Origin: Paenisporosarcina antarctica
GTDB lineage: Bacteria; Bacillota; Bacilli; Bacillales_A; Planococcaceae
NCBI RefSeq assembly: GCF_004367585.1
Contig: NZ_CP038015.1
Coordinates: 2,858,001 to 2,922,000, forward strand
Length of the DNA stretch: 64,000 nucleotides
Direction: 5' to 3'
Position 1 is the stretch's first letter, and the number at the start of each line of letters is the position of its first letter. Shown piece after piece: positions 1 to 42,265 of this stretch. The translations under genes were made by a program, and so were the position numbers. A model generated the notes under the pieces. It did not search any database. It saw nothing but the letters and a program-made list of their open reading frames with translations, and was not told the DNA's origin.

Positions 1-1001
1 CAAAATCATCTTGGTCTTAAGTTGTTGTTGGTTCCATTCAATCGTTTCTTCAGAGACGAAGGCCATTCTTTTGCGTTTTGGTATTTTGGCTTGGCTATTT
101 TTCGCTCTTGTGTAACCTTCAATCATAGCGGCAATGGCTAGAATGACGAGCGCAAAGCTTATGGCTGGACCTAATGGAAGCCACGGTGCTCCTTGTAGAT
201 AGCGGAAGGTGTTGCCAAAAATCCCTGCCCATTCATAAGAAATCGATTTAGGTGGATCTCCAAACATGGGGTCATAGTCTACATCTGTTCCCCCTATGAA
301 TAATTGCAGCAATCCTAAATGGGCAAATACAATGAGAGATTCAACGACTTGTTGACCGTATAGCACCAACATTTTCTCGCGTAGTTGAGGAAATAAATGT
401 CGAATTATAATGCGTCTGCGACTAGCACCGAGTGTCCGTGAAGCTAATATATATTCTTGATGGTACAAAAGATTGGCTTCGTTTCCAATTAATGTTACTA
501 CGATTGGTACCGTTATCAGTGCCATAATGACAACTTGGATGACGATTCTTTCGTTAATCGTCGTAGAAAATCCTTCCTCAGGCATCCACAACACAGGAGT
601 TAGTAAGATGACAGCAAAAATCGTCATAGGTACGTAATGCATGGGATCAATCAATGCATTAATCCAAGAGCGTTGACGTTGTAAATACGTACCATCACAA
701 AGCCTAAAGGAATGGCAATCAGCATACGTAAAGCAGCAACGGCCATGGCGGCGAAGATGGTGTACTTTGCTCCTAGCATGATTTTCGCTAACATATCATA
801 ACCGAATTGATCTGTTCCAAGTGGATGCATCAAGCTTGGAGAAATCGGTGGACCTTCAACGGCACGACCGTTTTCTTCAATGAAAAATGTTTGCTTTGGC
901 ACGTTGCCAAAGATCCATTCAAATACAAAGCTCCCACCTAAAAAGAATGCGATGATGCTAAATCCAATGAGAAATAATGGTTGTCTCCATACTGATTTCA
1001 A
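1..1001 (-). pseudogene. Oligopeptide-type ABC transporter permease (OppC/DppC class), frameshifted, cut by window edge
   Basis: This would be the second membrane permease of an ABC importer, probably for peptides. It starts with TTG at 1001 and overlaps the stop of the upstream permease by 4 bp (TTGA), so the two are translationally coupled. The first 116 codons give a TM segment and the family-typical stretch around HPLGTDQFGYD, then stop at 651. The -1/+2 frame is open from about 690 to the window start and continues the same protein: it reads on through GTYLQRQRSW and carries the permease loop (ANLLYHQEYILASRTLGAS) that docks on the ATPase. The break lies near 688-692, in GTGATGGTACG, where one missing G would restore the frame. 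It is either a real pseudogene or a one-base sequencing error. The C-terminus lies outside the window. Confidence 0.8.
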
Positions 1002-1885
1002 AGTGTGGCACCTCCCCTATTCATTCGGCGCAAGAAGTACCATTCTCCTAAACTATATAATAAGAAAACGGGTAAGAAGAAGCTCAAGACAGTGACTAAA
1101 AACAAAATTCCGCTCAAGTTTTCGAACATGTAATACATAATGCCAGGAATGTTAAACATTAATTCGAGAATGAAGAGATTTGATAACATGAACCACATTG
1201 TTTTTTTAGATTGGAAAAACACACTGATAATGGCGTTACGCAAGATATGTAGGAATAAGATAAATGCTTTGCTAAATCCTAATGATTTTGCAAGCTCCAC
1301 ATACATTTGACGTTCTTCTGCTTCAAACGTCAGCATGCTTAAACGATACAGTTGAATCATTGGTAGAATCATTAAACACAATACTGGAAGCCAGTAGATC
1401 CTGTCGTCACCGATTGCCGCAATTTTAGATACCAAGACGCCGGTTTGTTGAAAAATGATGACGATGGACAATTGGGCTAATAAAATAATTAAGATATCCG
1501 GAAATGACTCCAAAAAATATAAAAATAGTTTCACGCGTGACCGGGATTTTTCACTCAATAACATCGTAATAAAAGTGCCAATTAACATGAAAATAATCGC
1601 AGCTGCTAGTGCTAAAAATAAAAGTTGCAAAGAGTAGCTAATATTTTCAAAGAGTTGCGGAAATACAGATACTTGGCGTACTTCCCCTCGTCCAATGTAA
1701 TAGTCGACACTTAGCTCTCGAAAATTCCAAAGAGACTTCACATGAAATTGGAGCGTTTCTATGTATTCTTTCCATAACAATTCACCTTGTTGGAAACCTG
1801 TAATTAAAAGTGGAGCACCACTTATAAGGAGAATGCTAAACAGCGCAACAACAAATTGAATCACCCATTTAAAAATGCCTTTCAT
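998..1885 (-). CDS. Oligopeptide-type ABC transporter permease (OppB/DppB class)
   Basis: A 295-residue integral membrane protein expected to form one half of the permease channel of a peptide/nickel-type ABC importer. The N-terminus is a TM segment followed by a long extracytoplasmic loop (about residues 30-85). Several hydrophobic helices follow, with the ATPase-docking loop near residues 180-215 (EERQMYVELAKSLGFSKA). The ATG start at 1885 has a strong AGGAGGT site. The next gene starts inside its stop codon, so the pair is one operon. No solute-binding protein or ATPase gene is in the window; they may lie to the left. Similarity to OppB is moderate and the substrate cannot be told. Confidence 0.75.
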   Translation of the reverse strand: MKGIFKWVIQFVVALFSILLISGAPLLITGFQQGELLWKEYIETLQFHVKSLWNFRELSVDYYIGRGEVRQVSVFPQLFENISYSLQLLFLALAAAIIFMLIGTFITMLLSEKSRSRVKLFLYFLESFPDILIILLAQLSIVIIFQQTGVLVSKIAAIGDDRIYWLPVLCLMILPMIQLYRLSMLTFEAEERQMYVELAKSLGFSKAFILFLHILRNAIISVFFQSKKTMWFMLSNLFILELMFNIPGIMYYMFENLSGILFLVTVLSFFLPVFLLYSLGEWYFLRRMNRGGATL

Positions 1886-2143
1886 AGAACAAACCTCCTA
1901 CTGTGCTAAAATTCAGATATTTCGATAATACCATATTTCATTTCGAGTGACGAAAAAAAAATGATCTACTTATGATTGCACTATAACAAAGTCCCCGTAT
2001 ATCCCATTTTGCTGGACGTTTTTGTCCTTCTTATCCGAAAGTACTTGGTTGTTCCTCTGTTTCAAGCAGGCAAATCGCTTTCACCGGATAATTTCTTTAT
2101 ACTAAGTTGTAGAAGTTTTTGTGTTTATTAAGGAGGTTATATT

Positions 2144-2494
2144 ATGGAAGTTGTAGATGTAAAAAAATTGCAGGAGTTGTTAAACTCCTTTGCCGATAAA
2201 GATATTTATCTCCACCTTGAAACAACAAATGGAGCTTACGCATCCCATTTTGACGAAACTGTGTTTAATGCCGGTGCTTTTATTCGCAATATTGTTGTTA
2301 AGTATGAGCTTGGAAAAGTTGCTGGAGATAGCCCTCACCGAGTCGGATTGAAATTGCCGCATGGTTGGGTTTACGCACAAGGTATCACACATTTTGAATT
2401 AGATGAGCATGGCCGCCTGTTGATGGCTGGACATGATCAAAGCGGAAAATTAGCGGTAGCTCTTCATATAAGCGAAACACCATTCACGTATTAA
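2144..2494 (+). CDS. YojF family protein (DUF1806), partner of BshB2
   Basis: A 116-residue soluble protein of the YojF family, whose gene sits directly before bshB2 (yojG) in Bacillus, exactly as here. Its role is not firmly established; association with the bacillithiol deacetylase is inferred from this constant pairing. The start has a perfect AAGGAGG site 7 bases upstream. The stop is 16 bp before bshB2, so the two are co-transcribed. A TATACT -10-like hexamer lies at 2098-2103, without a convincing -35. No catalytic motif or membrane segment is visible. Confidence 0.85.
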   Translation: MEVVDVKKLQELLNSFADKDIYLHLETTNGAYASHFDETVFNAGAFIRNIVVKYELGKVAGDSPHRVGLKLPHGWVYAQGITHFELDEHGRLLMAGHDQSGKLAVALHISETPFTY

Positions 2495-2510
2495 TTAAGG
2501 AGGAACACAG

Positions 2511-3206
2511 ATGACGCTTCCACAAGAGAGACATGTTTTGGTTGTTTTTCCTCACCCAGATGATGAGGCATTCGGTGTCTCAGGAACAATTGCCACATAT
2601 ATTAAGCAAGGAACACCTGTTACATATGCTTGTTTAACACTTGGCGAAATGGGCCGAAATTTAGGTAATCCCCCATTCGCAACGAGAGAATCCTTGCCAC
2701 ATATTCGCAAACAAGAATTACTTGCTGCAGCACAAGCGATGGGCCTAACGGATTTACGTATGATGGGTTTACGCGATAAAACTGTCGAATTTGAAGATGA
2801 TGAAAAAATGGTTCAAATGATGACGAAATTAATTGAAGAAACCAATCCTTCACTTGTGATCACCTTTTATCCGAATTATGCCGTCCACCCTGACCATGAA
2901 GCAACAGCTCGCGCGGTTGTTCGTGCGATTCGACGAATGGATGAAACACTCCGTCCAAAACTGCATGGTGTTGCATTCGCAAACAATACAAAAGACGAAC
3001 TAGGTGAAGCAGACATCGTCCATGATATTCGCCAATCACGCGATCAAAAAATGGGTGCTATGAGAGCACATATTTCACAAACAGCGTGGATGTTAGAAGA
3101 GATGGACAAACGTTTAGCTGAAGGAGAACCCAAAGCTGAAAACTGGCTTTCGTACGAACGCTTCTACCACTATCGTTGGCATGAAGATTTTGAAAAAACA
3201 TTTTAA
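2511..3206 (+). CDS. bshB2: Bacillithiol biosynthesis deacetylase BshB2
   Basis: A zinc-dependent N-acetylglucosaminyl-malate deacetylase, expected to remove acetate from GlcNAc-malate to give GlcN-malate, step two of bacillithiol synthesis. The 231 residues start with the LmbE/PIG-L signature PHPDDE at 14-19. The second metal motif HPDHEA is at 126-131, giving probable zinc ligands H15, D18 and H129. It follows yojF by 16 bp with an AAGGAGG site and ends at a strong terminator. Length and motif spacing are normal for the YojG/BshB2 branch. The assignment to BshB2 rather than another LmbE-like enzyme rests on the yojF neighbour. Confidence 0.92.
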   Translation: MTLPQERHVLVVFPHPDDEAFGVSGTIATYIKQGTPVTYACLTLGEMGRNLGNPPFATRESLPHIRKQELLAAAQAMGLTDLRMMGLRDKTVEFEDDEKMVQMMTKLIEETNPSLVITFYPNYAVHPDHEATARAVVRAIRRMDETLRPKLHGVAFANNTKDELGEADIVHDIRQSRDQKMGAMRAHISQTAWMLEEMDKRLAEGEPKAENWLSYERFYHYRWHEDFEKTF

Positions 3207-3211
3207 TAGAG

Positions 3212-3252
3212 TCCTGAAGATGCCATTTATTTTGGTATCCTCAGGATTTTTT
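3212..3252 (+). terminator. Rho-independent terminator of yojF-bshB2
   Basis: A 14-bp stem with G-U pairs (TCCTGAAGATGCCA against TGGTATCCTCAGGA), a 7-base loop and a run of six T. It starts just after the bshB2 stop. Confidence 0.85.
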
Positions 3253-3363
3253 CTATTACTTGGAAAGCGTTTTCAAAAAATGATGGACATTTTCATTCGT
3301 TGCACGTATCATTATCACAGAAATAAAAAACTGAATAATTATACATAATAGGAGGAGTCACCT

Positions 3364-4719
3364 TTGAAGAAATTTTCACTATCTACATGGCTATTATTCT
3401 TAATACCCTCAATTATCGGAATTTTCTTATTCATGATTCCATTCAAGTTTGATGGCGAATGGAAAATTCCTGTTGCTATATTAGCGAATATGGTCGCTGG
3501 GAAAGTCGAACCTATAATGCCATGGACAGTTACAATCGTAATGATTCTTGCTGCACTTGGTTCAATCATTTATCAGTTTAAAAAAGATCCAAATCCTGAT
3601 GATCAAACATTTTTTGAAAAGCTCTTCCAAGTCAATTGGTTCTGGACAATTGTACGCGTAATAGGTGCTGTCTTCGCCGTTATGGTTGTTGCAAATATTG
3701 GACCTGAAGCTGTTCGAAGCGAAGATACAGGTGGATTGTTACTTTCTGCTACAGGACTTTTGTCTTTCTTGTTCACGATATTCTTATTTGCAGGACTTCT
3801 TTTACCTTTACTATTGAATTTTGGTTTACTGGAATTTTTCGGTACAATCATGATTAAAATAATGCGTCCTCTATTTAAATTACCAGGTCGGTCTTCCGTT
3901 GATGCCCTTGCCTCTTGGGTTGGCGATGGTACAATTGGCGTCTTACTAACAAGCAAGCAATATGAAGAAGGCTTCTACACCAAAAAAGAAGCAGCGATTA
4001 TTGGAACGACATTCTCAGTCGTATCGATTACTTTCTCTATTGTCGTAATTGAAGAATTAGAACTTGGTGCTTATTTCCTTCCATTTTACGCAACAGTTAC
4101 TTTATCCGGTATTGTATTAGCATTTATAATGCCTCGTATATTTCCACTGTCACGTAAATCTAATGAATACATTGATGGTCGCCCATTTGATGAGCATGCA
4201 GAAACATTGCCTAAAGGATACAACGTCGTAAGTCACGGTTTAGAAAACGCCATGACAACGGCGAATAAGAATCGCTCTGTTAAGAAATTTGTTACAGATG
4301 GTTTAAAAAATGTATTAGATATGTGGATAGGTGTTGCGCCAGTCGTTATGGCGTTTGGTACCATTGCGTTAATGCTTGCCACGTATACGGATTTATTTGT
4401 ATGGTTAGGGAAACCGTTTGAGCCTTTGTTGATGGTTCTTGGTATTCCTGAAGCTGCACTAGCTGCACAAACGATGGTTGTTGGTTTTGCGGACATGTTC
4501 TTACCAGCTCTTTTAGGTGGGGAATTGATTGAGTCAGAATTGACTCGTTTTGTCATCGCAGCAACTTCTGTTACACAATTGATTTACATGTCTGAAGTTG
4601 GTGGATTGTTACTAGGCTCTAAAATCCCGGTCAACATCTTAGATCTACTTATCATTTTCTTACTACGCACAGTAATTTCATTACCAATTATCGCAGCAGT
4701 AGCACATATATTATTTTAA
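3364..4719 (+). CDS. YjiH family membrane protein (nucleoside-recognition / Gate domain)
   Basis: A 451-residue polytopic membrane protein. It starts at TTG, preceded by GGAGGAG. It has N-terminal helices (residues 8-30 and about 55-75) and two hydrophobic Gate-type domains (roughly 130-270 and 320-445) separated by a hydrophilic loop of about 50 residues. The Gate domain is shared with nucleoside transporters and with SpmA/SpmB. YjiH proteins are probably transporters of unknown substrate. The gene stands alone, between the bshB2 terminator and its own terminator at 4797. I recognise the family from the overall pattern; no substrate claim is justified. Confidence 0.75.
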   Translation: MKKFSLSTWLLFLIPSIIGIFLFMIPFKFDGEWKIPVAILANMVAGKVEPIMPWTVTIVMILAALGSIIYQFKKDPNPDDQTFFEKLFQVNWFWTIVRVIGAVFAVMVVANIGPEAVRSEDTGGLLLSATGLLSFLFTIFLFAGLLLPLLLNFGLLEFFGTIMIKIMRPLFKLPGRSSVDALASWVGDGTIGVLLTSKQYEEGFYTKKEAAIIGTTFSVVSITFSIVVIEELELGAYFLPFYATVTLSGIVLAFIMPRIFPLSRKSNEYIDGRPFDEHAETLPKGYNVVSHGLENAMTTANKNRSVKKFVTDGLKNVLDMWIGVAPVVMAFGTIALMLATYTDLFVWLGKPFEPLLMVLGIPEAALAAQTMVVGFADMFLPALLGGELIESELTRFVIAATSVTQLIYMSEVGGLLLGSKIPVNILDLLIIFLLRTVISLPIIAAVAHILF

Positions 4720-4796
4720 TTCCTAAATTCGAAGAAACCTATATATCTCAGCGCCATGAAATGTGGCAAATGATTACTGCTAGCTAGACATAAAAT

Positions 4797-4843
4797 AAGC
4801 TGTCTCAAAACTCGCAACTAGCGACTTTAGAGACAGCTTTTTC
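4797..4843. terminator. Bidirectional terminator between YjiH gene and CoA transferase gene
   Basis: Inverted repeat AAGCTGTCTC / GAGACAGCTT with T-runs on both sides. It lies between convergent genes, about 80 bp from each. Confidence 0.85.
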
Positions 4844-4924
4844 TATTTGGTAGTTAATCCAACAAAGACTATTAGTTCAATTATTTTAGATATTGTGAAA
4901 ACAAGTTGCTTCAACCATTCAATT

Positions 4925-5899
4925 TCATTGTTTCAAAGAAACCAAATTCCCCCTACTTGACCAATGTGGATGTTGATCAAGCTCGCTTGGATACATTATA
5001 GGTGTTAAGCAAAAATCCGTTTCAAGTGAAATATTTAACCACTCTTCCCACGAAAGTGATGCGAAAAATAGGTCGATTTGTTGATGAACTTCACTTCCGG
5101 CAAGTTCAAATTGCATGGCTTGCCAATCAGGTCGCTTCGCAAATTCGCAGAAATTAGTCCAAAACTTCAATTCAAGGGCGGCTAACGCAATGTAACGTCC
5201 ATCTTTTGTTTCATATATATTGTACGCAACATATGATCCATCTATTTCAGGGATTCCGTGATCCGATACTCCTGAAGCCAAGTATTCAAGATTTGTTCCT
5301 TGGAATTTAGCCATCGTATCTGTTATTGAAACTTCAATTTTCGAACCTTCCCCTTTTCGAAAACGGAGAACAAGTGCAGCTAATATAGATTCAGATACAG
5401 CAAATCCTCCTGCGTAATCCGCTAAAGTAGTTTTAGGAATAACAGGCTTGCCTTTACTGTCTTGTATTTGTGAGAGAACGCCTGATAAAGCAAGGTAGTT
5501 CAAGTCATGACTACCAAAATTCCCTAGCGGACTACCCGATCCGTATCCAGTCATTGAGCAATACACAATTGATGGATTGATCGCTTTAACCTCTTCATAA
5601 CCAAATCCAAGACGTTCCATCACCCCTGGTCTAAACGATTCTAGCAAGACATCTGAATGTTTAATTCGTTCTGCCAGTTGTTCTTTTCCATGAGGGGTTT
5701 TCAAATCTAAATGGACTATTACCTTCCCACGATTATTCGCGCGATGTATAGCCCCGCCACTCATCGAAATCGCTGGATCTCCTTCTGGTGGTTCGATTTT
5801 CACTACATCTGCACCCATTTCTGCAAGACGCATGGTCGAAAACGGTCCTGGTAAGTAATACGTAATGTCCAACACGCGAATTTGATCCAATGGTTTCAT
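4925..5899 (-). CDS. CaiB/BaiF family (class III) CoA transferase
   Basis: A 324-residue enzyme of the family that includes carnitine CoA-transferase and alpha-methylacyl-CoA racemase. Family hallmarks are the N-terminal LDITYYLPGPFSTMRLAEMGADVVKIE pattern and the expected catalytic Asp in LADYAGG (near residue 160). The short length fits the racemase-like branch better than the roughly 400-residue transferases, and the acyl substrate cannot be told. I place the start at the ATG at 5899 because GGAG lies 9 bases before it; an in-frame ATG at 5926 lacks a ribosome site. It is monocistronic and convergent with the YjiH gene. Upstream lies the repeat-rich region. Confidence 0.85.
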   Translation of the reverse strand: MKPLDQIRVLDITYYLPGPFSTMRLAEMGADVVKIEPPEGDPAISMSGGAIHRANNRGKVIVHLDLKTPHGKEQLAERIKHSDVLLESFRPGVMERLGFGYEEVKAINPSIVYCSMTGYGSGSPLGNFGSHDLNYLALSGVLSQIQDSKGKPVIPKTTLADYAGGFAVSESILAALVLRFRKGEGSKIEVSITDTMAKFQGTNLEYLASGVSDHGIPEIDGSYVAYNIYETKDGRYIALAALELKFWTNFCEFAKRPDWQAMQFELAGSEVHQQIDLFFASLSWEEWLNISLETDFCLTPIMYPSELDQHPHWSSRGNLVSLKQ

Positions 5900-6113
5900 A
5901 CTTAACAACTCCAATTTGTTTATCAATTTAGTACACTAACAAGCTATTCATTCCATAGAGAATTGATGATAATTGTCACGTATTGTTCCCACGTGATTAT
6001 GACAGAAAATTTACGTCCACTCAGTTTTATTGGAAAATTTCACTTTATTCATTCTTTACTATTTGAGTCAATTTCATAATAAAAAATCTAGGAATAAAAT
6101 CCGAACAAACTAG

Positions 6114-6300
6114 ATTTCCGCTCCATGCGGACACTTTCCGTGGGGCACGACGTGGCGTTCTTAGTCTTCGTTCCACGCTCCTGCGGTTACTCGTCGCAAA
6201 TACACTGGCTTTTGGCCAGCATCTTTCCTGCGGGGCTTTCAGTTCGTGCTAGTCCCACAGGAAAGATTAGGACCAAAGCATTTTGGTCCTAATCTTTGCG
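6114..6300. repeat. GC-rich dispersed palindromic element, degenerate copy
   Basis: Shares blocks with the copies at 11.3, 16.9, 31.6 and 58.0 kb: CCATGCGGACACTTTCCG at its left end, then CTCCTGCGG, CGTCGC and CTGCGGGG. Inside is a 16-bp perfect hairpin AAAGATTAGGACCAAA / TTTTGGTCCTAATCTTT (6263-6298), immediately followed by the 37-bp tandem array. No reading frame is supported here. Confidence 0.7.
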
Positions 6301-6301
6301 A

Positions 6302-6471
6302 CGAAGCTAGCGTAGCGATGCAACGCACTTTCATGTTTCGAAGCTAGCGCAGCGATGCAGCTCACTTTCATGTTTCGAAGCTAGCAAAGCGATGCAGCTC
6401 ACTTTCATGTTTCGAAGCTAGCAAAGCGATGCAGCTCACTTTCATGTTTCGAAGCTAGCAAAGCGATGCAG
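6302..6471. repeat. Tandem array of a 37-bp unit (4 full copies plus 22 bp)
   Basis: Unit CGAAGCTAGCAAAGCGATGC followed by AGCTCACTTTCATGTTT, starting at 6302, 6339, 6376, 6413 and 6450. The period is exactly 37. The copies differ mainly at the two bases after GCTAGC (GT, GC, AA, AA, AA). There is no spacer between units, so it is not CRISPR. A short (AAACAG)n run follows. A single unit also occurs inside the composite elements at about 11331 and 16998. Confidence 0.95.
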
Positions 6472-6539
6472 AAACAGAAACAGAAACAGGAGCAGATGTT
6501 TTACGCCGCATTGCGCTACAATCAAACGGTACCTGATTA

Positions 6540-6880
6540 AAATAAACAGATAATTATTATAATAAGCAATTAAATGTTCGTGTTTATTAAAGAATTGAGG
6601 AGTTATGAAATTGACTCAATTCAAAATTAATTCTTTTTTCTGAATTAAATAATTTCAATCATAATAGTATTGTACAAAACCAAAGTGGAAAGTGCTATAA
6701 AAACTTTTGGAAAATTTTAGAATCAATAAGTGGAACTCATTAAGAAAACCAGGAATTTCAAATGCAAAACTTGAATGGTAATGTCGACAAGGCTTCCTGC
6801 TTTTCTGTGACGCACCAGTAAATCTAGATCTGATGGGGTTGTTAAAATTCACCATATAATCAGTTGATGCACTTCCGAAA
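6540..6880. other. AT-rich gene-free stretch
   Basis: No supported gene. Only short frames without ribosome sites are present, on both strands. Possibly decayed sequence. Confidence 0.5.
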
Positions 6881-6986
6881 TTTAACTATTACAACGTGAA
6901 TCGCAATTTTTACAACGTGGAGATCAAATTTTACAACGTCACCTTCCATAATTACAACGTGGCAGCTAATAATTACAACTGAGCCA
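6880..6986 (+). repeat. 21-bp phased array, family A, copy 1 (TACAACGT motif)
   Basis: TACAAC starts at 6890, 6911, 6932, 6953 and 6974, exactly 21 bp apart. The array is preceded by ATTTAACTAT and closed by TACAACTGAGCC. The third unit carries CGTCACCTT, as in the other two copies (24.1 kb and, inverted, 40.7 kb). Between the motifs the copies differ freely. Confidence 0.9.
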
Positions 6987-7103
6987 TCGCTCGACATTAA
7001 TCCCAACTCTTTTTGACCAGACTAGACATGTTAAAGTGTCGCAAAACCCTTCTTTGCATGACTTCAAACACTTACATAAAGTAAAAACTGCCGCTCTAAA
7101 TGC

Positions 7104-7144
7104 AAAAAAGCTGACGTTTCCTAGTAGTAGGATCGTCAGCTTTT
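7104..7144 (-). terminator. Terminator of tdh
   Basis: Stem AAAGCTGACG / CGTCAGCTTT around a 16-base loop, with a run of T on the minus strand, 16 bp after the tdh stop. Confidence 0.85.
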
Positions 7145-7159
7145 CAGTATTTATTTTTA

Positions 7160-8104
7160 TTATACTTTTTGGGTAAGTTTTGCGAGCATATCTTCGGTCA
7201 TTGCATCTAAATCGTACAGTGTTTTAAAGCCCCATTCATTTTTAGCAGCGCTTGCATCAATCGCATCTGGCCAACTATTTGCAATACCTTGTCGAACTGG
7301 ATCTACATCGTACGACAATTCGAAACTTGGAATGTGTTTACGAATTGATGCCGCAATTTGTTCCGGCTCAAAACTCATTGCTGTAACGTTAAACGCGTTT
7401 CGGTGTTCAAGTTTTGACCCATCTGCTTCCATTAAGTCAATGATTGCTTGGACGGCATCAGGCATATACATCATATCCATAAACGTGTCTTGCTCAATGT
7501 ATGAAGTATATTTCCCCTCTTCTAATGCTTTATAATAAATATCTACCGCATAATCCGTTGTTCCTCCACCTGGTGGCGTTACGTACGAAACAAGCCCAGG
7601 GAAACGTACACCGCGAGTATCTAAACCAAACTTGTGGAAATAGTAATCACATAATAGCTCACCCGCCACTTTGTTCACTCCATACATCGTGGTTGGACGT
7701 TGCAAAGTATCTTGGGGAGTATTTTGTTTCGGTGTGGATGGACCAAACGCTCCTATTGAACTCGGGGTAAAAAATTGAAGGCCTAATTCGCGTGACGTTT
7801 CAAGTGCATTAACTAAGCCGCCCATATTTAAATTCCATGCAAGTAATGGCTTTTCTTCTGCTGTTGCCGATAACAATGCGGCCATATGCATCATCGTATC
7901 TGCGCCAAAGTCTTTTGCAAGTGCATGCATGCGATCTGCATCCATTACATCTAATAATTCAAACGGTCCGCTTGTAGTAACAAGTGAATCTGTTAAGCGA
8001 ATATCCGTTGCTAAAACGTTGTCTGCTCCATAAATATCTCGTAATTTCATAATTAATTCTGATCCAATTTGACCTAAAGCACCTGTTACGATAATTCTTT
8101 TCAA
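7160..8104 (-). CDS. tdh: SDR-type L-threonine 3-dehydrogenase (NAD-dependent epimerase/dehydratase fold)
   Basis: Predicted to oxidise L-threonine to 2-amino-3-ketobutyrate using NAD, the step before Kbl (kbl is at 9897-11087). The 314 residues show the extended-SDR signatures: glycine motif TGALGQIG (7-14), [10 protein letters not shown] near 113-122, and the catalytic pair Y141/K145 in YGVNK. The region [13 protein letters not shown] near 207-219 is typical of this threonine dehydrogenase group, which is unrelated to the zinc-dependent Tdh of B. subtilis and E. coli. The ATG start at 8104 has a weak ribosome site (GAGGAGT). The gene has its own terminator and is not in one operon with kbl. 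Another epimerase role is possible. Confidence 0.8.
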
Positions 8105-8315
8105 CTAAAACTACTCCTCTTCATATATACATTTGTACTCTCCAAAAGTACAGATACTTTAAATAAAACCTTGGTATGATTGACTTCACCTAATATCTAT
8201 TATAGTGTGTTCGTTGTGAAAGCACAATATGTTTTAGATAGCAGTGTTTTCCTTTTATTAAAGATGAAATACAGAAACAAGAAATTATTATCGATCATCA
8301 TGATTTGTAATAACC

Positions 8316-8345
8316 TTTCATTTAATATGTTAATTTTGGTATACT
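8316..8345 (+). promoter_or_regulatory. Promoter for the TPR-like membrane protein gene
   Basis: TTTCAT (8316-8321), then 18 bp, then TATACT (8340-8345) preceded by TTGG. It would start transcription near 8352, just before the chosen ATG and downstream of any longer N-terminus. Confidence 0.45.
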
Positions 8346-8371
8346 TAAAAATAAAAAGGACTAAATTACTT

Positions 8372-8992
8372 ATGAATATCTTCCGCTTAATTGTGATTTA
8401 TCTAATAATAATCTGCTTAACGTTGTTTTTATCTTATTTACAATTTCCAATCTTAATTATCATTTTGACCGTTTTCATCCTTTTCTTAGCATTTGTAGTT
8501 CTGCCACAAGTATTCACGGCTTATCGATCAAATAACGTAAAATCAATCGCAAAATTTCTAGAGTCGAATAAGAAGAAGCCACTATTTGCGTATCCACTTG
8601 CCTTGGCAAAAGGTAATGACACTGAAATTGAAGAAAGTTTACACGCCATTTTAGCAAAGCACAAACAGCCGTATATGCAAAATGTGTATAAAACGATTTT
8701 AGCTTTACATCTTGAAGATATTGATGCTGCAGATACATATGCTCAAAAAATAGATAGCGATCCATTGAAATCGTATTATGCTGCTTACATTGCTGCCAAA
8801 AAAGGTGACTTTGAAGAAGCGGTTCTCCTTGAGGAAAATATACATGTAGATTGGATGAATCACGCTTTACATGCACTTTATGCTCATGAAAAAGGTCAAC
8901 AAGATGAGTTTGAAATCGAGTCTAAAAAAGCCATTGATGATTCACGTGGCGCACAAAAGTATATTTTAGTTCATGCCTTTAATAATATGTAA
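8372..8992 (+). CDS. Membrane-anchored protein with TPR-like helical domain, function unknown
   Basis: A 206-residue protein. Two adjacent hydrophobic segments (about residues 4-25 and 28-50) are followed by a helical, Ala/Leu-rich cytoplasmic part with TPR-like spacing (ESNKKKPLFAYPLALAKG, SDPLKSYYAAYIAAKKGDF). The frame is open 64 codons further upstream, but I start at 8372 because AAAAAGGA lies 11 bases before it and a promoter-like sequence sits at 8316-8345. It is not assigned to a named family; small proteins of this layout are common in Bacillales. It is divergent from tdh and ends at its own terminator. Confidence 0.75.
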   Translation: MNIFRLIVIYLIIICLTLFLSYLQFPILIIILTVFILFLAFVVLPQVFTAYRSNNVKSIAKFLESNKKKPLFAYPLALAKGNDTEIEESLHAILAKHKQPYMQNVYKTILALHLEDIDAADTYAQKIDSDPLKSYYAAYIAAKKGDFEEAVLLEENIHVDWMNHALHALYAHEKGQQDEFEIESKKAIDDSRGAQKYILVHAFNNM

Positions 8993-9004
8993 GAGTTTTC
9001 GATT

Positions 9005-9032
9005 ACCACGCTGCCATTTCGCGTGGTTTTTT
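9005..9032 (+). terminator. Terminator of the TPR-like protein gene
   Basis: ACCACG / CGTGGT stem followed by six T, 13 bp after the stop. Confidence 0.75.
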
Positions 9033-9075
9033 GTTTGGAAAAAGGTAGTTCATCTGCCTCACCTCTCCAAACATT

Positions 9076-9108
9076 AAAAAACCTCGACGCTTCTCACGAC
9101 GAGGTTTT
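9076..9108 (-). terminator. Terminator of the AlkD-type gene
   Basis: AACCTCG / CGAGGTT stem with a T-run on the minus strand. Confidence 0.75.
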
Positions 9109-9124
9109 CTATTTATTTTAAAAC

Positions 9125-9829
9125 TTAACATCTTAATGTTTTTTTCTTTTTTGGTTCACCACGGGACAAAACTTTTTCGATATAGTCAGAGGCAATTGGC
9201 ACTTTACATGCAGTTCCCCCCATATCGACATGTACTTCACCAATCTCTCTAGCCACTTGTTTCGCTTCTCCTCTTAATTCCGAAACATATACACCCACTC
9301 CTATTACGAATGAGTTCATGACGTAGCGCACTCGGTTTTGCGCTTCATGAATGCCGACACGAACTTGTTCTAACAGTTCATTAATTTCTTTTATATCAAG
9401 CGCGTCAGCACTTGTATACGCCAAATAGTTGGAGTACGTACTCCAACCAGCGCAAACAATCATTTCTTCATCCGATCGCATCCACTCTCGTGCTAATTCT
9501 AATGCATATTGACTTTCCGTAGTCACCCAAGGAACTGTGTATTCAGCTAACATGTACCAGTTAGCGGCTTCCACCCAAGACTGTAACTGTTCTTTCGTCA
9601 TCAATTTTGGATTTACAGCTAAGCCTGCTAAATACATAGCATCATAAATCCCAGAATCATATAACTTTAATACCAATTCTTGATCCTTCTTAACATGTTT
9701 TAATATCTTTTTCATATCACCTATCTTGACTCCAAAAATCTCTCCGGTTGCCCCGTTATTGATAAGTATATTCCGTGTTTGCTCTGTGCCCACTTCTTCT
9801 AAATAACGCATGACTTCTTCATACGACAT
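9125..9829 (-). CDS. DNA alkylation repair protein (AlkD-like HEAT-repeat glycosylase family)
   Basis: A 234-residue all-helical protein of the AlkC/AlkD superfamily, whose members bind and excise alkylated bases. Family features are the N-terminal KIGDMKKILKHVKKDQELVLKLYDSG-type helix pair, the Trp-rich stretch (WVEAANWYMLAEYTVPWV, about residues 87-105) and CAGWSTYSN. The C-terminus is basic (GEPKKKKTLRC). I start at the ATG at 9829, with AGGGGG 8 bases before it; a GTG two codons earlier sits too close to that site. It lies between the kbl terminator and its own terminator, so it is transcribed alone. Glycosylase activity is inferred from the family. Confidence 0.8.
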   Translation of the reverse strand: MSYEEVMRYLEEVGTEQTRNILINNGATGEIFGVKIGDMKKILKHVKKDQELVLKLYDSGIYDAMYLAGLAVNPKLMTKEQLQSWVEAANWYMLAEYTVPWVTTESQYALELAREWMRSDEEMIVCAGWSTYSNYLAYTSADALDIKEINELLEQVRVGIHEAQNRVRYVMNSFVIGVGVYVSELRGEAKQVAREIGEVHVDMGGTACKVPIASDYIEKVLSRGEPKKKKTLRC

Positions 9830-23963: not shown

Positions 23964-24091
23964 ATACGTTCCCCCTTTGAAACTTTGTCGTTTATAATTC
24001 CGTTATTCCCTTGTTGGTGCATCAGCAAACCAGATGAAACTTCTAATTCCCTAAATTTTATTAGGAATAAAGAGCAATTTTTAATTCCAGT

Positions 24092-24196
24092 ATTTAACTA
24101 TTACAACGTGGAACGTAATTTTTACAACCAAGGTTCTCAATATTACTACGTGAACTTCAATTTTTACAACGTCACCTTCTTTAATTACAACTGAGT
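24092..24196 (+). repeat. 21-bp phased array, family A, copy 2
   Basis: TACAAC/TACTAC starts at 24102, 24123, 24144, 24165 and 24186, exactly 21 bp apart. It is preceded by ATTTAACTAT and closed by TACAACTGAG. The unit with CGTCACCTT is the fourth here. It lies between the PLD gene start and the terminator of the sigma factor gene. Confidence 0.9.
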
Positions 24197-27934: not shown

Positions 27935-27980
27935 AAAAATCCCGATTCTCCGCATAAGTTGCGATGAATCGGGATTTTTT
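27935..27980. terminator. Bidirectional terminator between dipeptidase and nitroreductase genes
   Basis: AAAAATCCCGATTC / GAATCGGGATTTTTT around a 17-base loop. It lies between convergent genes and overlaps the nitroreductase stop by 2 bases. Confidence 0.92.
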
Positions 27981-28554
27981 AGTTTGAACCGAAGAATGTA
28001 ATGAAATCTTCGACAGCTTTACGAGGTTTTGCTTTTGGCATTTCATCATAATAACCAAATTGCAGCATGCTTATGATGCGTTCTCCTGGGTTTATGCCAA
28101 GAGCTTCACGGAATTTTGGTGCATCTATAAATGGAGGTGTTTTCCAGCAAGCTCCGATTCCCAAGTCCCATGCTAATAATTGCGCATTTTGAATGTAGCT
28201 ACTAGTAGCTGCATAATCTTCCAATCTTTCTTTTTGACGCACATCTTCTTTAACAACGACAAATGCATAAGCTCCTGCAGAAGTGAATTTCTTCATTTGT
28301 TTTGTTAATTCATCTTCAGAAAGCTCTTTCCACTTCGCAACACCGAAGTCTCGTAATACTGTATGAAGTTCTTTCAATTCCATATCACAAGCAACAACCA
28401 TTCTCCATGGTTCACGATTCCCGTGATTTGGAGCCCATTTTGCATCTTCTAATACGGCTAAAAGCGTTTCACGTTCTACTGGTTGTCCATTAAAGTTTTT
28501 AATTGAGCGACGTTGAAGTATTGCGTCACGTACTGATAATGATTGTCCATTCAT
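27979..28554 (-). CDS. Nitroreductase family protein (YdjA/NfsA-like small type)
   Basis: A 191-residue FMN-dependent oxidoreductase. Family features are the N-terminal RRSIKNFNGQPVERE phosphate-binding motif, APNHGNREPWRMVVA (about 37-51) for FMN contact, and the C-terminal FGYYDEMPKAKPRKAVEDF tail. It would reduce nitro-compounds or quinones with NAD(P)H; the physiological substrate is unknown. ATG start at 28554 after AAAAGGGGAA. Convergent with the dipeptidase gene. Confidence 0.88.
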   Translation of the reverse strand: MNGQSLSVRDAILQRRSIKNFNGQPVERETLLAVLEDAKWAPNHGNREPWRMVVACDMELKELHTVLRDFGVAKWKELSEDELTKQMKKFTSAGAYAFVVVKEDVRQKERLEDYAATSSYIQNAQLLAWDLGIGACWKTPPFIDAPKFREALGINPGERIISMLQFGYYDEMPKAKPRKAVEDFITFFGSN

Positions 28555-29039: not shown

Positions 29040-29180
29040 CTATGGCAACTTTTATTTCGAATGAAGCAACTTTTGCTCTGACTGGGGCAACTTTTGCTCC
29101 GAATGAAGCAACTTTTGCTCTGACTGAAGCAACTTCTGCTCTGACTGGCGCAACTAACCAATTGTCTCCTAATTATAACA
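29040..29180 (+). repeat. 21-bp phased array, family B, copy 1 (GCAAC motif)
   Basis: GCAAC at 29045, 29066, 29087, 29108, 29129 and 29150, exactly 21 bp apart. Units alternate between GCTCTGACTG and CGAATGAA endings. It closes with GCAACTAACCAATTGTCTCC and TAATTAT, nearly identical to the end of copy 2 at 61083. Confidence 0.92.
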
Positions 29181-29298: not shown

Positions 29299-29868
29299 AT
29301 GATTGTCTATTTCTTAGCGAGCTATTTATTTGGTAATGTTCTAACAGCGTGGTGGATTGGAAAATACTACAACATCGACTTACGCAGCCATCGTAGTGGA
29401 AATTTAGGTGCTCGTAATGCTGGAGCAGTGATTGGAAAAGCAGCATTTCTTTTGACATTTTTAGGTGACGCTTTGAAGGGTGTGCTCGTTATTTTAGCTG
29501 GACGCTATCTCGGCTATCCGGAATGGGCAGTTGCTATGGGTGGATTGCTTGTAATTTGTGGTCATTTGTTTCCATTTTGGTTAAAAGGAAAAGGTGGTAA
29601 AGGAATTGCTACTTTCGTTGGTATCGGACTCACTTTTAACATTTTATTTGCTATTGCTTTTAGTGTTGCATTTTTCCTTGTTATTCCATTCATTCGGAGT
29701 GCGACTCTCAGTATGATTTTTGCATACTGTGCTTATATTGGTTCAGTCTTCTATTTTAATGAAGTACATCATGCTTGGCCAATACTGATTGTCATCTTAC
29801 TCATAATGTATCGTCATCGGTTTGACTTCAAACAATCTTTTGATGAAAAAAAATGGAAACACGCTTAA
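29299..29868 (+). CDS. PlsY-type glycerol-3-phosphate acyltransferase family protein
   Basis: A 189-residue membrane protein with five or so TM helices. PlsY transfers the acyl group from acyl-phosphate to glycerol-3-phosphate. The motif 1 region reads HRSGNLGARNAG rather than the common GSGNxGATNxxR. Motif 2 is GDALKGVL. Motif 3 GHLFPFWLKGKGGKGIAT is fully conserved. The divergence suggests a second PlsY-like paralog rather than the main housekeeping enzyme, but activity is likely. ATG start at 29299 with ATGGAGGG. No operon partner; DegV follows at 120 bp. Confidence 0.82.
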   Translation: MIVYFLASYLFGNVLTAWWIGKYYNIDLRSHRSGNLGARNAGAVIGKAAFLLTFLGDALKGVLVILAGRYLGYPEWAVAMGGLLVICGHLFPFWLKGKGGKGIATFVGIGLTFNILFAIAFSVAFFLVIPFIRSATLSMIFAYCAYIGSVFYFNEVHHAWPILIVILLIMYRHRFDFKQSFDEKKWKHA

Positions 29869-40566: not shown

Positions 40567-40613
40567 AAAAAAAGCTGGCGGAGGCATCCGACAGTACAAA
40601 TCAAGATTTTGCA
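40567..40613. repeat. Direct repeat, copy 1
   Basis: AAAAAAAGCTGGCGGAGGCA, then TCCGACAGTACAAATCAAGATTTTGCA. It recurs identically at 40844-40892. The two copies bracket a terminator-like hairpin and family A array copy 3. Confidence 0.92.
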
Positions 40614-40647
40614 CCTAAATAATAGAAAGACTGCAGTGGTTAATGGC

Positions 40648-40707: not shown

Positions 40708-40815
40708 AGGCTCAGTTGTAATTTTGAGGCGTCACGTTGTAATTATTTAAGGTGACGTTGTAAAAAAGAGAGTTCACGTAGTAAAAATAGAGCTTCACGT
40801 TGTAATAGTTAAATT
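40708..40815 (-). repeat. 21-bp phased array, family A, copy 3
   Basis: On the minus strand TACAAC/TACTAC starts at 40804, 40783, 40762, 40741 and 40720, exactly 21 bp apart. It is preceded by ATTTAACTAT and closed by TACAACTGAGCC. CGTCACCTT is in unit three, as in copy 1. Confidence 0.9.
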
Positions 40816-40843
40816 ATGGAATTTATATTTATTGCTTTCCATC

Positions 40844-40892
40844 AAAAAAAAGCTGGCGGAGGCATCCGACAGTACAAATCAAGATTTTGCAT
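40844..40892. repeat. Direct repeat, copy 2
   Basis: Second copy of the AAAGCTGGCGGAGGCATCCG element described at 40567. Confidence 0.92.
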
Positions 40893-41670
40893 TTAAAAAA
40901 AGAAATGCTGTGAACTTGAAGTGCTACATGGTCTCGCACACGTATATGTAGTGATCTGCATGAGGAATTAGTTTTTCACTTTCCTCATTGAATCTTCAGC
41001 CGTCTTCTTCCTTTAATGTCAGTGTCTATTCACTCGTCCATCATACTCACCTCAAGAATGCCCGTCACAACCCTATTGGTTTCATTTGCAGGTTAAGACG
41101 AAATTTGTTTGTCGTTCAAAGTGAACCAGAAATCTGGTGATACAGTGTGCGTGGTGAAACAACTATTAATAAATTAAGAACCTTGTTATGTAACCTCCTC
41201 CAACAGGAAATTTGCAATTAGCGAAATGGCTACCATACAAGGGTTTACGCATTTTTTAAGGTGGACTTGAATGCTTTTGTTTACGCTCCGCTCCTAAATG
41301 AAAGAAGAATCGCTAAGGACTGTTTCATTAACTAGTTTACTTGACTAGTGAAACTAATTTTGAAAGCTTCTTTCTTTTGCACAACATTTATCGGACAATT
41401 TAGAGATTTATCGCCCAAATACGTCTCACAACCTAGTTAACTTGCTGAAACAGCACCTATTAAATTGATCATTAGCCATAGAGAAAGGTAACGAAAGTGA
41501 CATGGCTTTTATAGTAGGGTTTATTCGCTGTTTTATAATAGATATTAAATGGTTTTTTACGCTACGCTCCTGTTGGTATTTGCGTGCTGATATAGTTTAT
41601 AAATTGGAACGTACTGGTCTGACATAGAGGAGAGATATTCTGTGTAACCCTTCTTTCAAGTAACGCAGTG
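40893..41670. other. Gene-free centre of the 40-42 kb repeat block
   Basis: No supported gene on either strand. Two diverged copies of a segment ending TTTACGCT(C/A)CGCTCCT are seen (about 41210-41302 and 41480-41573). An inverted repeat, TTTCATTAACTAGT / ACTAGTGAAA, lies at about 41324-41354. Confidence 0.6.
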
Positions 41671-41940
41671 GGATCCTTTATAGTTTGCTACGAGTGGCCG
41701 AAATTGCATCTTCGGCCGCTTCTTATCTAGATAGTCAGTATCTCTTCTCTCGTAAACCAAAATCAAAGACCTGTGCACGTTTAGGTTGTAGGTGAGCGAA
41801 GGATGCACACCCGCCACAAGATTGCCTGTAGGAACGAGTGAAGGTCGAAGTGACAACGTCACTTCGATCTTCACTTTCATTCCCCAGGTTATGGTGCAGC
41901 GAGTTGGCCATCCATAGCGAACCGAAAACCATAGTCGATA
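41671..41940. repeat. Long inverted repeat, right arm
   Basis: Reverse complement of 39994-40258, with the matching hairpin GTGAAGGTCGAAGTGAC / GTCACTTCGATCTTCAC at 41840-41876. Confidence 0.9.
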
Positions 41941-42265
41941 CATTTCCTATTCCCAGTTTACATGTCGGTCTTATTGAACTTCACTTTCATTCCCCAGGTT
42001 ATGGTGCAGCCGGTTGGCCATCCATAGCGAACCGAAAACCATAGTCGATACATTTCCTATTCCTTGTTTACATGTCGGTCTTATTGATCTTCACTTTCAT
42101 TCCCTAGGTTATGGTGCAGCGGGTTGGCCATCCATAGCGAACCGAAAACCATAGTCGATACATTTCCTATTCCCTGTTTACATGTCGGTCTTATCACTTT
42201 GACCTTCACTTCATTCCTAAGTTATGATGTAGCAAGTTTTCCATCCAAAGAGAACCTGAAACCCA
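41870..42265. repeat. 110-bp tandem repeat (3 copies plus a degenerate part-copy)
   Basis: Units start at 41870, 41980 and 42090, period exactly 110: TTCACTTTCATTCCC(C/T)AGGT ... CCATCCATAGCGAACCGAAA ... CATGTCGGTCTTAT. A worn fourth copy runs from about 42203 to 42265. The first unit overlaps the end of the long inverted repeat, so the array grew from that end. Confidence 0.93.

Follow-up and report, generated by a model that had tools for sequence, protein, structure and literature searches.

In one gap between genes on the chromosome of Paenisporosarcina antarctica, the motif TACAAC recurs five times at a fixed interval, and the locus raises the question of what kind of element keeps such a ruler. 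The initial annotation had offered a phased protein-binding array, a structured RNA or a mobile small element as answers, and had pointed out that 21 bp is also seven codons (YNVxxxF heptads). We analyzed the whole stretch of 64,000 nucleotides around the array (hereafter, "the window"; G000:C1:2858001-2922000), which is part of a 3.89-Mb chromosome, together with related and more distant genomes. We refer to the arrays that carry this motif as family A. The features of the window are listed below by coordinates, strand and description.

6873-6889, plus strand: left end (TTCCGAAATTTAACTAT in the window array), common, with variants, to family-A copies
6890-6979, plus strand: family-A array of five TACAAC motifs, four of which precede a GT, in four 21-bp steps
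6980-6996, plus strand: right end, TGAGCCATCGCTCGACA, with a small inverted repeat GAGC/GCTC, found in most copies
7097-7153, minus strand: inverted repeat with an A-run and a T-run, likely a two-way terminator of the epimerase gene 7160-8104
24085-24101, plus strand: left end of the second copy
24102-24191, plus strand: second family-A array, five motifs, four 21-bp steps
29045-29157, plus strand: array belonging to the same class, built on a different motif, GCAACT, mostly GCAACTTTTGCTC; six motifs, 21-bp steps
40715-40804, minus strand: third family-A array, five motifs, four 21-bp steps
40805-40821, minus strand: left end of the third copy (TTCCATAATTTAACTAT)

Family A across the chromosome

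The motif starts of the window array (6890, 6911, 6932, 6953 and 6974) bear out the exact 21-bp steps read in the initial annotation, and the copies at 24.1 kb and 40.7 kb do keep the phase, as it had claimed, with one motif in each altered to TACTAC. The pattern TACAACGT-N13-TACAACGT has four matches in the window, three of them in the array at 6890, and none in any of 100 shuffles. The defined start (ATTTAACTAT) and end (TACAACTGAGC) described there recur, as such or as close variants, in most copies in the genome.

Chromosome-wide, we found 24 family-A copies, 20 with five motifs and 4 with four. Their steps measure 21 bp in 91 of 92 cases; the lone phase break, a 22-bp opening step inside a T run, belongs to the copy at 884,076. 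When the spacing was left free (TTACAAC-N3..33-TTACAAC, a count that takes in family A and the family C introduced below), 81 of 86 pairs in the genome were exactly 21 bp apart, so the variable spacing that would have spoken against a ruler was not seen; the reversed pattern gave 3 matches. Two one-step family-A remnants lie at 2.08 Mb. Across the 20 five-motif copies, the core TACAAC is 97% conserved versus 76% at spacer positions 8-17, and counted in register there are 15 changes in the 116 family-A motifs. The 20-copy comparison, like the RNA folding described below, used the five-motif copies and read the first unit of copy 884,076 with a one-base shift; the change counts of that comparison (237 and 16) are therefore slightly too high.

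Spacer identity in these copies is 0.64 for the matching unit between copies versus 0.40 between units within one copy, a level that also sets aside near-identical copies from recent duplication. Each copy is laid out as TTCCATAATTTAACTAT (with variants), the array, and then TGAGC-NNTC-GCTCGACA; a short inverted repeat is seen by eye at the right end, homology extends from about -25 to +125 around the array and then fades, and several copies have flanking modules in common. The copies are thus homologous over a defined unit at non-homologous places, as in a dispersed repeat. Because the spacers, unit by unit, and both ends are common to them, whole family-A arrays must have been dispersed; they spread as complete units and diverged afterwards, while core and phase were kept. 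Two further families in this genome, B (TTCCAACTTGG) and C (TTACAACTAAA), have a 21-bp layout like that of family A. A family-C array of five TTACAACTAAA motifs at 21 bp lies about 440 bp before the window (G000:C1:2857474-2857564), and the matching gap of genome G004 holds a family-B array.

The main rival to a protein-binding array is a selfish repeat, dispersed like BOX or REP elements, in which the array is needed by a transposase or recombinase, active copies keep core and phase, and the host gains no function. We regard this as possible but doubtful. It explains family A well, given the spacers and ends shared among copies. The whole arrays in tandem in genomes G007 and G047, and the arrays of different type in the same gap of related species, also speak for it; the flanking modules fit a plain repeat equally. 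It explains the Sporosarcina arrays described below poorly. No transposase was seen next to the arrays examined.

Arrays with one period and many motifs

We scanned non-coding DNA without a preset motif, taking 7-mers of whatever sequence that recur in three equal steps of 12-60 bp and leaving out near-identical tandem repeats. The 80 loci scanned, each up to 17 kb around one conserved gene, came mostly from Bacillales, with a few other Firmicutes. All 20 matches below 40 bp fell at 21 bp (17) or 20 bp (3); from 40 bp up, matches fell at 40-42 bp (12, about twice the period), 52 bp (2), 53 bp (1) and 60 bp (1), and several of the matches come from the single locus L066. With 6-mers, arrays of 20 or 21 bp appeared in 17 of the 80 loci. 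Samples of the P. antarctica genome, scanned with 7-mers, gave 21 bp seven times, 37 bp once and 41-42 bp eight times, and 18 further Planococcaceae loci gave 21 bp (2), 20 bp (1), 12 bp (1) and 16 bp (1). In 17 loci of other Bacilli (48,398 non-coding bases), 6-mers revealed a clear ATCRGTC array of 21-bp period in L375 (found at 42 bp), a weak GATAAA array in L363 and further matches at 12 and 36 bp. E. coli yielded no match with 7-mers in 34,713 non-coding bases, a small control in which about three would be expected at the density of the 80 loci, and one match with 6-mers, at 12 bp. The evidence throughout comes from sequence. For the period it was drawn from samples and from loci that surround a single conserved gene, and figures for arrays per genome are rough.

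The motifs themselves look unlike one another (TGATCAACT, TACTTTCC, AATACTCGC, TTCGCGCGC, TTACTTGC, ACGCATAAA, TAAGCGTTCA and more), and more than 12 different motifs have the 20-21 bp period in common. A unit consists of a conserved core of about 7-9 bp, which recurs every 20 or 21 bp, and a weakly conserved stretch of about 12-14 bp. Arrays usually comprise 3-11 head-to-tail units, a few hold at least 25, and some alternate between unit types. Our literature search, which had preprints and most subscription journals outside its reach, found no description of such arrays.

Whole arrays also stand in tandem, about 143 bp apart in L214 (5473-6120, genome G047) and about 300 bp apart in L204 (1561-3212, genome G007). 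In Sporosarcina sp. E16_8, a 0.7-kb TCCAAC array (L066, 11872-12605) has higher-order repeats of about 103 bp, made of 21-bp steps with one shorter step per repeat.

Arrays were also examined in Sporosarcina luteola (L096/G121), Sporosarcina sp. ACRSL (L093/G122) and Bacillus pinisoli (L108/G125). Pairs of GCATAAA number at least 124 in S. luteola and at least 237 in Sporosarcina sp. ACRSL, versus 7 and 10 for the reversed pattern; among the matches listed, nearly all pairs are 20 or 40 bp apart, the exceptions being 12, 17 and 39 bp in the former and 15 bp in the latter. Over 33 loci of the two genomes, 263 of 279 steps are 20 bp (allowing steps of 18-22 and 40 bp, with the L270 array entered as two chains that overlap). 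Most often an array has seven units (22 of 39). The unit sequence is RCGCATAAAYCNNNNNAWWY; ten bases past the central A of its core, one helical turn on, stands an A that is 90% conserved, as would suit a DNA site approached from one side. S. luteola has about six array families; random 20-kb samples added TTAYCACCGATTC, TTATCGGTCA, TGATCGATA and AACGAGAACTC at 21 bp and AGCCCTTG at 20 bp, as well as one near-identical tandem repeat at 26 bp. B. pinisoli mixes steps of 19 (31), 20 (31) and 21 bp (93). The "two helical turns" of the initial annotation therefore hold as 20-21 bp and not as strictly 21.

In the Sporosarcina loci, 253 of 263 units are distinct, and no shared ends were seen by eye in the arrays inspected, which counts against the selfish repeat; nor would a transposase site need more than 12 motifs with one period. 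These observations also bear on the idea that slippage or uneven crossing-over of 20-21 bp units built functionless arrays. Alternating unit types do suggest 42-bp duplications, and the number of units differs between orthologous arrays (below), but such a process would give identical units rather than a conserved core with diverged spacers, and it offers no reason for one period across motifs; we consider it improbable.

In one Sporosarcina sp. ACRSL locus (L317, G122:C31:100000-119999), a stretch of about 8 kb (990-9141) contains eight GCATAAA arrays, which occupy many of the gaps between tandem genes; the genes beside these arrays have no common function.

The heptad reading fares worst of all, and we give it next to no credence. 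The window copy is open in the YNV frame; however, the period is 20 in other genomes, which is not a multiple of three, and every family-C unit has a stop in that frame, so the idea of a coding repeat fails. The window array also lacks a start or ribosome site, as the initial annotation had itself observed.

The structured RNA option came to nothing as well. RNAalifold on the 20 five-motif family-A copies, the family that the fold test covered, gave -0.08 kcal/mol on the displayed strand and -1.2 on its complement, where each strand formed a single isolated helix of 4-5 bp. Rfam covariance models at the gathering score matched no array in the window or in 10 array loci; the sole match in the window was a tRNA, and those in the 10 loci were a tRNA and a purine riboswitch. 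We rejected a structured RNA on these two results. An array acting at the RNA level without a fold, as a transcribed strand with evenly spaced single-stranded protein sites in 3' regions, draws on the orientation of family A, whose GTTGTAA strand is the coding strand of the right-hand gene in 20 of 24 copies. We judge it unlikely: besides the missing fold in family A, arrays often lie beyond terminators, Sporosarcina arrays occur in both orientations (counts below), and single-stranded RNA gives no reason for a two-turn ruler.

Orthologous positions, neighbors and chromosomal placement

We compared 21 S. luteola loci (28 arrays) with 34 Sporosarcina sp. ACRSL loci (44 arrays), one array being counted twice in each genome. 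Fourteen S. luteola arrays have an array at the orthologous place, with both flanks matched for 10 and one flank for 4; the ACRSL side is part of that genome, and the remaining S. luteola arrays mostly lie beyond its scope. Spacer identity in the 14 pairs is 0.588; mismatched pairs give 0.515 (sd 0.013), and 0.543 is the top value among 60 mismatched sets. The higher value of the orthologous set argues that the pairs are the same by descent, although single pairs are often not distinct. Core identity is no higher in orthologues (0.889 versus 0.879, sd 0.011) and so does not alone prove selection at each place. Unit number varies between orthologous arrays (7 versus 9, 8 versus 5) with the phase kept. 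No counterpart was detected in S. luteola for the array beside the ACRSL epimerase gene (L093:9005-9131). For the mobile small element of the initial annotation, the dispersal of whole arrays with shared spacers and ends thus stands in Paenisporosarcina, whereas Sporosarcina arrays stay at orthologous places, which also weighs against the selfish repeat.

Seven array-bearing gaps of genomes G004 or G007 were matched by eye to the P. antarctica genome. Both flanks matched at two of them: at one, family A is present in either genome, and at the other, B in the related genome corresponds to C in P. antarctica. A single flank matched at the remaining five. At two of these B corresponds to A, at one B corresponds to a B remnant with an A array behind it, and at two the P. 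antarctica genome has no TTNCAAC array. The gap of the window array has no family-A array in P. indica, where by eye it holds two TGAGCGATAAA units 21 bp apart (weak).

Genes were called by simple ORF rules and the calls are rough. In these terms, 11 of the 24 family-A copies lie antisense in tandem gaps, 9 in convergent gaps, 4 sense in tandem gaps and none in divergent gaps, where insertion would do most harm, as a selfish repeat would have it. Divergent gaps of the same genome do hold one B copy, one C copy and the window array at 29,045, which sits between ORFs 27979-28554 (minus strand) and 29299-29868 (plus strand). In Sporosarcina, where context was read from loci of about 2.5 kb, the counts are antisense 13, sense 9, convergent 7 and divergent 5 (n = 34).

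Terminators that face the array within 150 bp flank 11 of 25 P. antarctica copies on the right versus 8.8% of 680 random intergenic places, and 6 of 25 on the left versus 10.3%. In the window, one lies 36 bp right of the second array; the likely terminator at 7097-7153 faces the first array by eye and was scored by the detector solely as pointing away. In other genomes, facing terminators within 60 bp flank 13 of 43 arrays on the right and 16 on the left, versus about 8% of 800, in a set whose tandem arrays are not independent; those pointing away number 5 on the right (versus 4.4%, slightly enriched) and 2 on the left (versus about 4%). The terminator association is weak in Sporosarcina, and a rule that places arrays near terminators or outside divergent gaps is not general.

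A 56-nt terminator-like repeat (GCTGGCGGAGGCATCCGACAG..) lies on both sides of the third array (window 40567-40622 and 40845-40900), and similar sequence adjoins at least two other family-A copies.

Family A is oriented opposite to replication in 20 of 24 copies, which may simply follow from gene orientation; as the two are inseparable here, we rejected a replication-directed orientation. The stretch from 1.20 to 2.47 Mb, which contains a GC-skew switch and the one-step remnants, is free of family-A copies with four or five motifs; the chance of such a gap anywhere is 0.0028. On contig C10 of S. luteola, the GCATAAA arrays among the matches listed lie at 1.27-1.86 Mb, with weak or broken arrays near 3 kb, 112 kb and 1.20 Mb as exceptions, and the skew switch is near 0.5-0.6 Mb. 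The terminus calculation took 8 of 19 samples instead of the correct 8 of 20, and searches for DnaA boxes and dif left origin or terminus unsettled in most genomes. That arrays are sparse around the replication terminus in these two genomes is suggestive, the tests having been chosen after the data were seen.

The 19 genes near arrays in two genomes (14 with a family match) have no shared function, and their proteins, five of them without a family match, include no replication initiator or transposase. This bears on a further alternative, that the arrays are solo iteron-like or transposon-end sites left by a mobile element with a replication initiator or a TnsB-like transposase. Iterons and Tn7-type ends do look similar, being direct repeats of about 20-22 bp that contain a short core. 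In addition to the missing proteins, though, a partner end was not seen, and blastn of the window array found no match among 72,556 plasmid and 50,697 phage records; we think this origin improbable, if slightly less so than the slippage described above. The family-A triple pattern had no match in IMG/VR, which together with the blastn result also counts against the selfish repeat. The TTCCAAC triple occurs in viral records in 19 stretches that are repetitive and, by eye, unlike the arrays. With no array match in the phage, plasmid and viral collections searched, we rejected a phage or plasmid origin.

Known systems and a putative docking site

Several repeat systems resemble the arrays in part. 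BOX, REP and ERIC repeats are dispersed, intergenic, modular and often at the 3' ends of genes, and they are palindromic or made of longer modules. The arrays are like them in dispersal, intergenic place and modularity, and differ in being direct repeats at two turns; we know of no repeat of this type that combines direct-repeat arrays at two turns with many motif families sharing a period. Plasmid iterons and the parC/tubC centromere arrays are short head-to-tail repeats with cooperative binding and a period of about 11-22 bp, present as one site per replicon, whereas the arrays here are dispersed on the chromosome. CRISPR arrays combine a conserved repeat with fixed-length spacers. Unlike these, our arrays have a core of 7-9 bp and a spacer of 12-14 bp, and in family A the spacers are position-biased and copied with whole arrays.

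The closest geometry is that of LytTR operators. In one account (PMC11347149), LytTR regulators bind direct repeats of 8-9 bp that are 10-13 bp apart, about two helical turns; RcoM1 and CoxC have three LytTR repeats in a row, with intervals of 18-21 bp for CoxC. Operators of the AgrA, RcoM and CoxC type, as described there, are like the arrays in that a core of about 8 bp, a spacer of 12-13 bp and a period of 20-21 bp match this geometry. They differ in number and place: the operators of that account have 2-3 repeats at promoters, while the arrays usually have 3-11 repeats, with dozens of arrays per genome, mostly not at the promoter of a common regulon. A LytTR protein (PF04397) was found in 17 of 18 genomes tested, the exception being G015, which had no match and bears 8 arrays in two loci, and we rejected LytTR as the general binder. 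The arrays may thus be similar in action to LytTR operators and yet distinct from them.

The window array thus belongs to a wider class of intergenic DNA elements, and we give about an even chance to the reading that each unit is a docking site for a protein. Each unit would take one subunit, or one dimer, of a DNA-binding protein with sequence specificity, the fixed spacing would bring neighboring proteins into contact along one side of the helix to form a polar row, and the different families would be read by different, fast-changing, lineage-specific proteins. The two-turn ruler with free letters, together with the conserved bases one turn apart in Sporosarcina, points to double-stranded DNA approached by a protein from one side. 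On the other hand, a strict "same face" arrangement is easier to reconcile with 21 bp than with 20, and steps of 19, 20 and 21 bp occur together in some long arrays. The phased protein-binding array is therefore the best supported of the three options that the initial annotation had raised, although the binder was not found.

As to function, our guess is that such a nucleoprotein row could serve as a boundary in gaps between transcription units, e.g., against read-through beside terminators, or could help to organize the chromosome; we consider a role of this kind about half as likely as the docking step. More broadly, and tentatively, the arrays might belong to an unrecognized layer of intergenic nucleoprotein strips in Bacillales, with several private motif families per genome, all built on two turns and each recognized by a separate, fast-evolving member of a single hidden protein family, in fixed gaps, with a swappable motif type and a sparse distribution around the terminus.

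If the arrays are protein-bound, they form a class of DNA sites that has gone unnoticed, since the letters change from genome to genome and the ruler alone is shared. Since a period scan that presupposes no motif finds the arrays, the binder, an effect on transcription or the chromosome, and coupled change of motif and protein all become testable. If they are instead selfish repeats, they are of an unusual kind, and the two-turn constraint is left unexplained.

Two further repeats were seen in the window. The core TTTATCG occurs twice, 20 bp apart, at 41380-41420, and a fuller TTTATCGGCC array of 21-bp period is found in L179 at 13,509. At 41866-42194, a 109-nt unit stands three times in tandem (95% and 97% identity to the first) in the long gap before cobW.
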